Origin: an uncultured Bacilli bacterium
GTDB lineage: Bacteria; Bacillota_I; Bacilli_A; RF39; UBA660
Length of the DNA: 12,950 nt
Direction of reading: 5' to 3'
Assembly: GCA_944363655.1 (NCBI GenBank)
Contig: CALVUU010000136.1
Coordinates: 1-12,950 of the forward strand
In this document: positions 2,495-6,715 of the stretch, one piece after another
How the letters are laid out: each line of letters opens with the position of its first letter
Position numbering within the stretch: position 1 is the stretch's first letter
Made by a program: the position numbers and the translations under genes
Notes under the pieces: generated by a model
Seen by the model: only the letters and a program-made list of their open reading frames with translations
The model's database searches: none
What the model was told of the DNA's origin: nothing

Positions 2495-3094
2495 TTAATG
2501 AACGCTATTTAGTAAATAAAATTCATTATCAGTATAAATATAGGTTTTATTTTGATACTCTTTTTCAAAACTTGTAAAAACATCAAAAATAGCATCTCCA
2601 TTGCCAATTAAATATAATTCTTTATTTTCAATTTTACTTTTTATATATTGAAATAATTCTTTATTACTTGAAAAAAAGTTAACAGGAATAAAGAAACTTG
2701 TTATTTTTTTATATTCATCTATATAACTTAATAAGTAATAATTATTGAAAACATTTAAATAAGCATTATTACTATTTAATTTATATAATTTTATTTCTTG
2801 TTCAAATACTATTCGACGATAATTAAATTTTTCTAATATAGTTTTTAAAAAAGATATATCTGCTGGTGTATATATCGGAGATACAATAACTTTAATTGTA
2901 TCTCCGAATAAGTTATTATTTATATGGATTTCATTTAATAATTTACTATATATTTTTAAAAATTTATCAATCCGATAAATTTTTCCATATTTAATTATAC
3001 CTTTATTTATTTTAAATATTATAATATTTTTTTGTTTTTTATTTTTTAAATATATTACTTCATCTGTTAGATATAATACATTGTTATATTTCAT
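2495..3094 (-). CDS. miniaturised, motif-depleted MreB/Mbl-like actin homologue
   Basis: This 199-residue protein occupies the place of mbl, directly after spoIIID. Compared from memory with B. subtilis Mbl (about 333 residues), three segments line up: residues 24-56 (INKGIIKYGKIYRIDKFLK; Mbl PLKDGVIADFEVTEAMLKHF), residues 67-107 (VIVSPIYTPADIS ... RIVFEQEIKLYKL; Mbl ICCPTNITSVE ... HVYLEEEPKVAAI), and residues 156-198 (KELYLIGNGDAIFDVFTSF; Mbl GVIITGGGALLNGLDQLL). The N-terminal DLGTAN phosphate loop is missing, the central DIGGGTTD loop is replaced by SYIDEYKKIT, and the large middle subdomain is absent. It therefore probably cannot bind or hydrolyse ATP like MreB. No TM segment. Its ribosome site AGAGGT lies in the last codons of spoIIID, three bases separate stop and start, and the two are probably co-translated in the mother cell. 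The relationship is inferred by eye; function unknown. Confidence 0.7.
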   Translation of the reverse strand: MKYNNVLYLTDEVIYLKNKKQKNIIIFKINKGIIKYGKIYRIDKFLKIYSKLLNEIHINNNLFGDTIKVIVSPIYTPADISFLKTILEKFNYRRIVFEQEIKLYKLNSNNAYLNVFNNYYLLSYIDEYKKITSFFIPVNFFSSNKELFQYIKSKIENKELYLIGNGDAIFDVFTSFEKEYQNKTYIYTDNEFYLLNSVH

Positions 3095-3097
3095 TTC

Positions 3098-3346
3098 TTA
3101 ACCTCTTTTATATTTTATTTTAGTTGCTTCTCCCCCACGAATATGTTTTATTTCATCATGTTTTTTAAATATTTTATTTATTCTATTAGCTAAATTTTTA
3201 TCAATTTTTTCTAATCTGTTTTTTAAATCCATATGTACTGTGCTTTTACTTACTGAAAAAACTTCAGCTGTTTTTCTAATAGTATCTTTCGTATCTAAAA
3301 CATATTTTGCTTCTTGTAAAACTCTTTTTTTAATAAAAACTTTCAT
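3098..3346 (-). CDS. spoIIID: stage III sporulation transcriptional regulator SpoIIID
   Basis: SpoIIID is the small mother-cell DNA-binding protein that modulates sigma-E genes and helps switch to sigma-K. The 82-residue product matches B. subtilis SpoIIID closely from memory: RKTAEVFSVSKSTVHMDLKNRL (about 25-45) is the helix-turn-helix with the signature VSKSTVH, followed by NLANRINKIF and the conserved HIRGGEATKIKYK near the C-terminus. I start at ATG 3344-3346; the in-frame TTG at 3352 would leave too little space after the AAGGGG ribosome site (3357-3362). That ribosome site forms one arm of a perfect hairpin (3357-3384). The gene is immediately followed by the mbl-like gene, as in Bacillus, and preceded by spoIIQ. 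Confidence 0.95.
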   Translation of the reverse strand: MKVFIKKRVLQEAKYVLDTKDTIRKTAEVFSVSKSTVHMDLKNRLEKIDKNLANRINKIFKKHDEIKHIRGGEATKIKYKRG

Positions 3347-3356
3347 AACCAAACAA

Positions 3357-3384
3357 CCCCTTAATAAATTATATTATTAAGGGG
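3357..3384 (-). promoter_or_regulatory. 11-bp perfect hairpin that covers the spoIIID ribosome site
   Basis: CCCCTTAATAA (3357-3367) and TTATTAAGGGG (3374-3384) are perfect complements with a 6-base loop. On the minus strand the promoter-distal arm ends with AAGGGG, which is the only Shine-Dalgarno for spoIIID. It follows the spoIIQ stop by 12 bases. The trailing sequence is TTGTTTGG, too poor in T for a classic terminator. It may hide the ribosome site, insulate spoIIQ, or both. Confidence 0.6.
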
Positions 3385-3396
3385 TCAATTTATGTT

Positions 3397-4041
3397 TTAT
3401 TGAAGATCATTTATATTCATAGTATAAAATTCTTCAGGATCAATGGTAAAGCCATTATAATAAACTTCAAATAGTAAGCAGTTTTCTGTTTCGCCATCTA
3501 AGAGATTATCACCACTTTTGCCAATTATGTCTCCAGCAGTTAAAACGTCATCTTTTTTAACAGCTATTTCCCCTAGGCTATAATAAACTGTTTTTAAATT
3601 GGTATTGTGGGTAACTTCAACAACATTACCTAATATTTCATCTTCACTTACATTAGTAACAGTTCCATCATAAACACTTACTACATCAAATGTTTCATTT
3701 GCGGAATATAATATTCCACTATTTTGTAAATAAGTTTGTTCATAATATACTAAAGAGTTTTGTTGTGTTTGTTCATCATCATCTTTATTATAATATGATT
3801 TACTAGTACTTACTGAAGTAGAGTTAAATGGTTTAACTATACTGTTAGTTGTTACCTCTTCTTCATTTTTAATTACGGGTTTTACTTCTTCATCTTCAAG
3901 AGCACTTACAGATAAATCATCTTGATAATTAATTTGATTTTGTAAGGCTGATCCTAAAAAAGAAATACTAACAAATAAAATTCCAATTACTAAAACATAA
4001 ACTGTCGGCAAGACAAATCCTTTTAATTTTCTTTTCTTCAT
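3397..4041 (-). CDS. spoIIQ: SpoIIQ-like protein with inactive LytM (M23) domain
   Basis: SpoIIQ is made in the forespore and pairs with SpoIIIAH across the septum to hold the engulfing membranes and the feeding channel together. The 214-residue product has a short basic N-terminus, one TM segment (about 10-31), a polar Ser/Thr/Asn/Asp-rich linker (to about 100), and an M23/LytM beta domain (about 105-205: GTVTNVSEDEILGNVVEVTH, TVYYSLGEIAVKKDD, AGDIIGKSG, LLFEVYYNG). The zinc ligands are gone: the first His motif reads QNSGILYSA and the HxH strand reads CLLFEV. Loss of zinc residues is known in Bacillus SpoIIQ, so the domain is probably structural. Position between spoIID and spoIIID supports the name. 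A forespore-type promoter candidate lies at 4060-4089. Another inactive M23 protein is the only alternative. Confidence 0.88.
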   Translation of the reverse strand: MKKRKLKGFVLPTVYVLVIGILFVSISFLGSALQNQINYQDDLSVSALEDEEVKPVIKNEEEVTTNSIVKPFNSTSVSTSKSYYNKDDDEQTQQNSLVYYEQTYLQNSGILYSANETFDVVSVYDGTVTNVSEDEILGNVVEVTHNTNLKTVYYSLGEIAVKKDDVLTAGDIIGKSGDNLLDGETENCLLFEVYYNGFTIDPEEFYTMNINDLQ

Positions 4042-4059
4042 AATTCACCATCCTAATTA

Positions 4060-4089
4060 AAGTATGAGAATTATTTGAATATTTTATAC
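4060..4089 (-). promoter_or_regulatory. candidate forespore (sigma-F/G-type) promoter of spoIIQ
   Basis: On the minus strand GTATA (4085-4089) and CATACTT (4060-4066) are 18 bp apart. The first resembles the GYATA -35 of sigma-F/G, the second the CATnnTA-like -10 of sigma-G; the GG of the sigma-F -10 is missing. The -35 overlaps the Val codon and stop of spoIID. Confidence 0.35.
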
Positions 4090-4989
4090 ATTTATTTCAA
4101 CGATATCGATATCTTGATAGTAATGATTTAGTATTTCTTCATAATTTGCTCCATTTTTAGCCATTTTATTAGCCCCATATTGACTCATACCTACTCCATG
4201 ACCATACCCTTTAGTAGTTATTTTTATATCATCAGCTATATCAATTGTAAAATCTGTTGAACGCAATCCTAATAAAGTACGTAAGGTTGTTCCTTTAAAT
4301 ACTTTATCATTTATTACAATAGAATTTACGCGATTAGTATTACTACGGGTTATATCATTAATAACTATATTAGAACAATCAATATTTAGTTTGGAACAAA
4401 ATTCTTCTTTAGTAAAAGTTTTAGTTACTAAAAAATTTTTGACAGATTCGTCCCAAGATGAATCGACACTTTTAAGATAGTCGCGAGTCTCACCAAAGAC
4501 TAAAGAAACGTCTTCCGTAGCGCCATTACTCATAGCAAAATAATAAGCACTTATTACGTCTCCTTCGTATTCCATTACTAAATTTTTAGTATCAGTAACA
4601 GCCTTCTTAATTTTATCATAATAAAAATTGTAATCTTCTCCCCATTTTTCTTGCATTTCTTCAGTAGTTATATATACTTGATTAGTAATATCTGTTACTA
4701 AATCATAACTTTCAGTAGATGTTTTAATTTTAGATAAAGCATAACTCCTAGCAGCAATTGCTTGAGCTTTTAGAGCTTCAATCTCAAATGATGCAGGCAT
4801 TTCACCAGCAACTACACCAATAACATATTCTTCTAAATTTAAATCGGTTTCTTTATTATTTTTGGTATCTTTTATTGTAACATTTACTAAATCATCATTA
4901 AAATAAGCAGCCTTTTTTTTACTAGGACTGCTTATAATGGCTATAATACTTAAAACAACTATTATTATAATTAAATATTTATTTTGCAT
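4084..4989 (-). CDS. spoIID: stage II sporulation protein D, peptidoglycan lytic transglycosylase
   Basis: SpoIID cleaves glycan strands from which stem peptides have been removed by SpoIIP; the two drive engulfment of the forespore. The 301-residue product has an N-terminal membrane anchor (about 4-20), then LEEYVIGVVAGEMP with the catalytic Glu63, then EALKAQAIAARSYAL (71-85), the SNGATED segment (154-160) and the C-terminal GYGHGVGMSQYGA (261-273), all signatures of the family. Length is close to that of Bacillus SpoIID. The ATG at 4987-4989 follows a GAGGTT ribosome site. A good sigma-E-type promoter lies just upstream (5005-5033), fitting mother-cell expression. The end of the gene supplies the -35 region of the spoIIQ promoter candidate. 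Confidence 0.96.
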   Translation of the reverse strand: MQNKYLIIIIVVLSIIAIISSPSKKKAAYFNDDLVNVTIKDTKNNKETDLNLEEYVIGVVAGEMPASFEIEALKAQAIAARSYALSKIKTSTESYDLVTDITNQVYITTEEMQEKWGEDYNFYYDKIKKAVTDTKNLVMEYEGDVISAYYFAMSNGATEDVSLVFGETRDYLKSVDSSWDESVKNFLVTKTFTKEEFCSKLNIDCSNIVINDITRSNTNRVNSIVINDKVFKGTTLRTLLGLRSTDFTIDIADDIKITTKGYGHGVGMSQYGANKMAKNGANYEEILNHYYQDIDIVEINV

Positions 4990-5914: not shown

Positions 5915-5931
5915 TTTTCGCTCCTTCCGCC

Positions 5932-5949
5932 ATGTCAAATTCATGACAT
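5932..5949 (-). promoter_or_regulatory. hairpin in the rpmE mRNA leader
   Basis: ATGTCA (5932-5937) and TGACAT (5944-5949) are perfect complements around a 6-base loop, between the predicted transcript start and the ribosome site. Ribosomal protein leaders often bind their own product; whether this one does is only inferred. Confidence 0.4.
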
Positions 5950-5969
5950 AGTAATCCTTTGTCTTTAAT

Positions 5970-6007: not shown

Positions 6008-6715
6008 TCAATTAAATACTAAATCCGAATATTGTAAATTATCGTTAATAATTGAAATTTTTAATTTACCAGTATACTCTACATTATTGTACTTAGCAAT
6101 AATTATTGCTAAGTAATGATTACCTTCTTTAAATATACGTTTTATATCGTAAGTTATTTCATTTTTTTTAGGAGAATTTAGTAGTAAATAAGCAATTTTA
6201 TAATCTTCATTAATATAATTTTCTATTATATCTATTTCTTCTTCAGGTATATTTGCTAAAACATTAGCATTATAAGCATCTTTTATAGATGTAGGTTCTT
6301 TAATATTTACAAAATAGTTTTCATAAGATGCAAATTCTAATGGACTAATTATTTTATAAATTATGTGGTCATTATATACTATACTAGGATAGTTTTTTTC
6401 ATAAATACAATCCATAATTACTGGGGCATAAAAATTGAAAAAATTTTCATTACTATTTATCTTATAACCCAAATCATTTCCTAAAGTGCGACAAGCGATA
6501 CTATCTGTTATTTTAGTATTATTTATATATGAAAATATATTTATTAGATTATCTTCAATGATAGCAATATTTTCATCAGGTGCTATATATTCGTTGTTTG
6601 AGTGATCTGTGGAAATTTCACTTTTAGTTATAATATAGAATACTAAACAAAATATTGCTACTATTCCTAAAATGATTAAAATTATTTTTATAAAATTACT
6701 AAAATTATTCTTCAT
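6008..6715 (-). CDS. membrane-anchored extracellular protein of unknown function
   Basis: I do not recognise this 235-residue protein. It has a short N-terminus, one strong TM segment (about 9-29) and a polar outside part of about 205 residues. The outer part starts with an acidic stretch and helix-forming residues (ENIAIIEDNLINIFSYI), contains two Cys (75 and 103) that could form a disulphide, and ends in alternating hydrophobic residues typical of beta strands (NHYLAIIIAKYNN, TGKLKISIINDN). ATG 6713-6715 follows a GAGGTC site. It comes 46 bases after the SGNH-like gene on the same strand, and the rpmE promoter begins within 20 bases of its TGA stop, so the pair probably forms its own small unit inserted between murA and rpmE. 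Confidence 0.75.
   Translation of the reverse strand: MKNNFSNFIKIILIILGIVAIFCLVFYIITKSEISTDHSNNEYIAPDENIAIIEDNLINIFSYINNTKITDSIACRTLGNDLGYKINSNENFFNFYAPVIMDCIYEKNYPSIVYNDHIIYKIISPLEFASYENYFVNIKEPTSIKDAYNANVLANIPEEEIDIIENYINEDYKIAYLLLNSPKKNEITYDIKRIFKEGNHYLAIIIAKYNNVEYTGKLKISIINDNLQYSDLVFN

Follow-up and report, generated by a model that had tools for sequence, protein, structure and literature searches.

A shrunken mbl descendant beside spoIIID in a group of small-genome Bacilli seems to have turned an actin into something other than an ATP-driven filament

Gene X and its locus

The window, by which we mean the whole 12,950-nucleotide stretch of DNA analysed here from an uncultured Bacilli bacterium, carries the gene order spoIID-spoIIQ-spoIIID-X-LytTR regulator-csp-hpf, in which csp and hpf are names that we presume from their sequences. 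On the reverse strand lie spoIID (4084-4989; TIGR02870, E 4.1e-92), spoIIQ (3397-4041; PF01551 and, below that model's cut-off, NF053738 SpoIIQ at E 2.5e-38) and spoIIID (3098-3352; PF12116 at E 1.2e-28 and, below that model's cut-off, TIGR02844 at E 5.9e-28). They are followed on the same strand by an open reading frame at 2495-3094, here called X, which begins with ATG and encodes 199 amino acids. As the original prediction had stated, the frame is intact and its ribosome site is coupled to spoIIID: X starts 3 nt downstream of the spoIIID stop codon, and its likely Shine-Dalgarno sequence, AGAGG (3102-3106, reverse strand), lies inside the end of spoIIID.

The position is that of mbl. Across 53 neighbourhoods, the gene after spoIIID was Mbl in 41, X in 7, a LytTR regulator directly in 3 (L026, L052 and L056, with no X in between) and another gene in 2. 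Forty of the Mbl genes were complete at 327-344 aa and one was cut by a contig end, whereas 150 X proteins measured 155-224 aa, some of them possibly contig-cut; intermediate lengths, which the original prediction had proposed to look for, were not seen. Two apparent SpoIIQ-X fusions (P0133 and P0139) were rejected, as the locus matching P0133 (L104) has a TAG stop at the junction; we therefore read P0133 as a TAG translated as glutamine by its source and assume the same for P0139.

In 32 X loci the gene follows spoIIQ or spoIIID, coming directly after spoIIQ where spoIIID has been lost (L102-L105). The median gap from spoIIID to X was 2 nt (15 loci), compared with 41 nt from spoIIID to mbl (41 loci); these counts leave aside two loci in which X overlaps spoIIID and its start is uncertain (L002 and L003), two with an unclear start (L049 and L172) and one identical to another (L014, the same as L001). 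In B. subtilis, according to the available text of PMC4474612, mbl is served by a sigma-E promoter located upstream of usd-spoIIID and by a vegetative sigma-A promoter between spoIIID and mbl. The spoIIID-X gap is too short to contain such a vegetative promoter, although one within spoIIID is possible. A consensus search for a sigma-E-like promoter found none in the window.

Between spoIIQ and spoIIID we observed a hairpin (3354-3387, reverse strand) whose 3' arm, TTAAGGGGT, probably serves as the Shine-Dalgarno sequence of spoIIID. Of the 13 X-type loci folded, most showed a similar hairpin, weaker in some, and neither of the two Mbl-type loci folded (L162 and L164) did. The hairpin could couple translation of spoIIID-X to that of spoIIQ; as it scored terminator-like on both strands and is accompanied by an invariant ATATA at a fixed distance, a promoter or operator is also possible.

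Other features of these neighbourhoods were recorded in passing. In nine loci (L104, L106, L109, L132, L136, L165, L168, L170 and L171), X is followed by a LytTR regulator, a protein of ~420 aa and an opposite-strand protein of ~200 aa, a set that we take to resemble agr-type quorum sensing; the LytTR regulator alone remains of it in the window. An ORF that presumably resembles MraY/WecA lies after spoIIID, in the mbl position, in L111 (genome G012) and after mbl in L139 (genome G070). Elsewhere in the window, an L31-Firmicutes ribosomal protein leader (Rfam RF03156, E 5.8e-5) precedes rpmE at 5921-5951 (reverse strand), and 6008-6715 (reverse strand) encodes a protein of 235 aa whose N-terminal part includes a hydrophobic stretch; it matches no Pfam family significantly and has relatives at 43-58% identity in L001-L003 and L166.

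Homology to Mbl and predicted fold

Single-sequence Pfam and NCBIfam scans with X returned no MreB match at E up to 10; the sole hit, to GNAT at E 0.0013, was below cut-off, and we rejected this identity on the strength of the fold and profile evidence. None of the 24 X members scanned reached the Pfam MreB cut-off, one of them coming to E 0.0022, and searches of PDB sequences with one X protein and then with profile A2 gave chance-level matches only. Similarity to Mbl emerged on comparison of profiles with hhalign, at a probability of 78.8 (E 1.7e-5) for the X profile and of 89.4 (E 2e-6) for eight distant members alone, and none of 200 column shuffles reached the profile score (shuffle maximum 21.4 against 42.6 for the real profile). 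With profile A1 of the near group alone, the signal was too weak (probability 4.35), the link becoming visible with the distant members, and global mode gave a low probability of 16.4.

An HMM built from X sequences alone ranked 34 X ORFs first among 998 ORFs, then 49 of 50 Mbl ORFs (E 2.8e-7 to 0.066), with the best ORF that was neither at E 0.13. Because the top-scoring reversed-ORF control came to E 0.06, individual Mbl hits at the weak end are meaningless alone and the argument rests on the ranking, obtained against a non-random background of loci fetched for their nearness to X, spoIIID or Mbl. Weak hits of the X profile in genome scans also fell on Mbl, in 9 of 12 cases with checked coordinates in one scan; in a second, 37 of 60 lay on Mbl-sized frames of 331-355 aa. 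Sequence homology, which stays below the Pfam cut-off in single-sequence scans, and the locus after spoIIID both place X with MreB/Mbl (PF06723) and support the reading that X descends directly from Mbl, in place at the mbl locus. The original prediction had listed three Mbl blocks in X: the first two recur in the proposed register, with X residues 34-106 aligned to PMKDGVIADFE...EEEPKVAA of Mbl, while the third is absent from the sequence alignment and comes from the structural one.

AlphaFold2 models of two distant X members, of 199 and 180 aa, showed a confident two-lobed predicted fold, and a fold search, which the original prediction had called for, ranked MreB and Mbl among the leading matches for both models. 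Residues 2-199 of the X model aligned with residues 3-320 of an Mbl chain, up to its C-terminus, and both models aligned over nearly all of their residues to chains of ~330 aa. The secondary structure of the models corresponds to actin subdomains IA and IIA only, an assignment that we presume from the general actin fold. The predicted IA-like half (residues 1-105; 2780-3094, reverse strand) contains the KDGVIADFE-like and CPTNIT...EEEP-like blocks, and residues 106-199 (2498-2779, reverse strand) form the IIA-like half, with a presumed border between them. Model lengths and the structural alignment indicate that material of both IB and IIB is missing, rather than the middle subdomain whose deletion had been supposed.

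The loss of the phosphate loops was confirmed. The phosphate-1 (DxGT), phosphate-2 (DxGxGT) and GGG motifs were present in 40 of 40 Mbl proteins and in none of 150 X proteins, a set that includes closely related cluster representatives and omits P0133, P0139 and the chimeric P0110. A vestige of the adenosine loop persists in 46 near X sequences, in which G164 is invariant and G166 occurs in 90% or more; this G-x-G at residues 164-166 is missing from most distant members. Leu62-Phe63 of X (2906-2911, reverse strand) aligns with the hydrophobic pair of Mbl SFLSRPR, and in alignment A2 a hydrophobic residue occupies position 62 in all 39 X sequences and position 63 in 38 of them. In T. maritima MreB, the available text of PMC3163269 describes L93/F94 in domain IA as a membrane-insertion loop and membrane binding as nucleotide-independent. 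We infer from the alignment that the pair in X may be this loop retained, through which X could contact the membrane.

Distribution and association with sporulation genes and MreC

A phmmer search with X returned 110 proteins at E <= 0.01, of which 46 were aligned. With profiles that include the distant members, a set of 288 genomes sampled across the whole GTDB order yielded 82 with X at E <= 6.5e-10, weak short hits in G208 and G302 (E ~8e-6) being excluded; one carrier is listed as 'Candidatus Onthocola', of NCBI class Bacilli. When 98 genomes were searched, 61 had Mbl, 18 had X, 19 had neither and none had both, counts that rest on metagenome-assembled genomes, which may be incomplete. Mbl was detected in 2 of 69 further X genomes, giving 2 of 87 in all. 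In these two (G141 and G269), X and Mbl lie on different contigs that each include a spoIID-spoIIQ set, and these sets belong to different clades; both genomes are best read as mixed bins. The original prediction would have fallen if the predicted structure had lacked actin-like subdomains, or if relatives had an intact mbl elsewhere and no profile similarity to X. Neither outcome was seen: the predicted fold is that of actin, similarity between profiles exists, and an intact mbl elsewhere was found in these two genomes only. True Mbl was defined by PF06723 at E below 1e-50 in the first genome set and at most 1e-30 in the further X genomes; the other PF06723 hits, mostly frames of ~600-630 aa, were taken to be DnaK. 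Genome lists, gap values and length values were compiled by hand from the scan results.

In an unrooted SpoIID+SpoIIQ tree of 46 loci, a single branch (100/96) set all 32 X loci apart, and adjoining them were two loci with neither X nor Mbl. The tree left out eight loci lacking SpoIID or SpoIIQ (L111, L139, L044, L057 and L059-L062) and four same-genome duplicates (L043, L047, L049 and L058).

Each of the 18 X genomes encodes a SpoIID of spore type, defined as an open frame of 297-345 aa; so do 38 of the 61 genomes with Mbl and 9 of the 19 that lack both genes. MreC, which the original prediction had not considered, proved to be the strongest added correlate and hints at a role for X in the Mre cell-wall machinery. 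It was detected (PF04085, E <= 0.001) in 82 of 87 X genomes (17 of 18 and 65 of 69), two of the 17 being weak (G041 at E 6.9e-9; G045 at E 4.2e-5, below cut-off). Of the 61 genomes with Mbl, 53 had it, as did 4 of the 19 with neither gene. Among 27 Mbl-negative genomes with SpoIID, MreC occurred in 17 of 18 with X versus 3 of 9 without (Fisher p 0.0017, kinship ignored). Mbl-negative genomes overall had MreC in 20 of 27 with SpoIID versus 1 of 10 without (p 0.0007, kinship ignored), and Mbl genomes in 32 of 38 versus 21 of 23. Because the tree separates X genomes cleanly from Mbl genomes, the co-occurrences of X and MreC are not independent events, and the Fisher values are optimistic.

The MreC frames of X genomes were short, with medians of 224 and 223 aa versus 285 aa in genomes with Mbl. 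As those in four genomes with neither X nor Mbl were also short (215-241 aa), we regard a short MreC as a clade trait and not an effect of X. Three Mbl-negative genomes (G025, G087 and G098) had SpoIID and MreC (215-231 aa) with no X detected; either X has diverged too far for detection there, or MreC works without any actin. Pfam detected no MreD in the 18 X genomes. At the 7 X loci read, its place is occupied by an ORF of 126-136 aa, and the one scanned matched no Pfam family. The gene order in the loci read was radC-mreC-(mreD)-spoIVFA-spoIVFB, in which radC is presumably identified, and Pfam domains were MreC, M23 and M50 at L140 and MreC and MreD at L145.

Proposed role of X

We propose that X is an Mbl descendant acting as a static membrane adaptor for a reduced MreC complex in sporulation, without a dynamic filament, a reading that we consider about evenly balanced between right and wrong. 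Having kept the predicted IA and IIA core and the membrane-loop hydrophobic pair and lost IB, IIB and the nucleotide motifs, X would hardly be able to run an ATP cycle and would probably form no MreB-type filament. It would most likely lie on the inner membrane face as an adaptor for MreC, and could thus organise sporulation cell-wall synthesis, in engulfment or in the cortex, in place of a dynamic actin filament. Its tight coupling to spoIIID, or in loci without spoIIID to spoIIQ, suggests that X is probably made in sporulating cells, and because sporulation genes accompany X wherever it occurs, and MreC does so almost everywhere, an adaptor of a reduced sporulation Mre complex is the most economical role. 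The original prediction had envisaged a sporulation-specific scaffold descended from a filament protein: descent from Mbl held, sporulation is consistent with the 32 X loci and the SpoIID counts, and the scaffold role is a candidate.

The main rival, a serious one that we judge less likely, makes X a factor of the SpoIID-SpoIIQ-SpoIIID module, such as a scaffold of the engulfment zone independent of MreC, the association with MreC reflecting shared retention in sporulators. The presence of spore-type SpoIID in every one of the 18 X genomes, the position of X directly after spoIIQ where spoIIID is lost and the tight gaps all fit such a factor. However, three genomes (G036, G074 and G081) have SpoIID and SpoIIID and lack both X and MreC, so that sporulation genes are retained without X in genomes that have no MreC, and X still goes with MreC among SpoIID-positive, Mbl-negative genomes. 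It is quite unlikely that X polymerises without nucleotide into a minimal filament held by IA and IIA contacts alone, an idea favoured by the conserved positions, the confident two-lobed predicted fold and the precedent of FtsA, which forms filaments with a rearranged subdomain. X lacks IB and IIB, the subdomains that approach each other on MreB polymerisation in the available text of PMC4051119.

That X is a decaying mbl pseudogene drifting in reduced genomes is very improbable and largely refuted. X does diverge fast, at 17-28% identity to the A4 reference row; three relatives have the LytTR regulator directly after spoIIID; and 11 of 82 X matches contain an in-frame stop, at the C-terminal end in the sole one inspected (G011). 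Nevertheless, frames of similar length, mostly uninterrupted, occur over many genomes, and the confident fold recurs in two distant members. Across the 21 pairs formed by 7 loci, the dN/dS of X (NG86) was 0.19-0.49 and never reached 0.5, which agrees with the earlier suggestion that X is kept for a purpose with dN/dS below 1; dS was near or above 1 in several pairs, and those ratios are rough. The neighbouring spoIIQ, spoIID and LytTR genes gave 0.06-0.17 between the window and three of the 7 loci, about two to four times lower than X in the same pairs, a difference that would suit decay. X is under constraint, less so than its neighbour genes. Finally, it is scarcely credible that a small gene of other origin was inserted in place of mbl and reached the fold by convergence: no member reached the Pfam MreB cut-off and the PDB-sequence profile search returned no MreB, but profile comparisons and genome scans give in-register homology to Mbl.

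Returning to the proposed MreC adaptor, X resembles Mbl/MreB in its locus, its predicted IA/IIA core, a hydrophobic pair aligned with the membrane loop and the company of MreC; it differs in being ~195 rather than ~330 aa long, in lacking IB, IIB, DxGT, DxGxGT and GGG, and in diverging much faster. EutJ (3h1q), the top Foldseek match (E 8.2e-9), whose PDB title assigns it to ethanolamine utilisation, shares a compact actin-like fold with X, a likeness by fold only. The cytoplasmic domain of GspL/EpsL is an actin-fold adaptor without nucleotide and thus comparable, although it belongs to a secretion system and an unrelated locus. FcmB, as far as the available account of it goes, is likewise an actin-fold protein outside the four classical families with a link to cell shape, but it forms filaments and derives from plasmid partitioning systems, whereas X derives from Mbl and has no ATP motifs. 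Ovococci also keep MreCD without any MreB, so an actin partner is dispensable for MreC; in X genomes, by contrast, a relic fills the mbl locus, and the available text of PMC4607420 mentions no MreB relic for ovococci.

A broader reading, which we advance tentatively as possible though doubtful, is that one Bacilli order made a nucleotide-free membrane adaptor from a cytoskeletal actin at its own locus and withdrew the whole Mre machinery from vegetative growth to a sporulation device, a fossil-actin elongasome kept only in spore formers. It stems from the near-confinement of MreC to SpoIID-positive genomes among the Mbl-negative ones, set against the Mbl genomes. A search of the open-licence literature, with subscription papers outside its range, found no earlier description of such an Mbl-derived protein, and the main text of a published study of sporulation and the loss of the wall in related orders of Bacilli does not include MreB, Mbl or MreC.

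Collectively, a group of small-genome Bacilli seems to carry, beside spoIIID, a shrunken mbl descendant in which an actin has been turned into something other than an ATP-driven filament. If true, this would be a natural case of an actin without ATP, and probably without filaments, that is still selected alongside MreC. Such an actin would allow one to ask which part of MreB's job differs from filament dynamics, and the loss of MreB in small-genome, spore-forming Bacilli would become traceable at a single locus.
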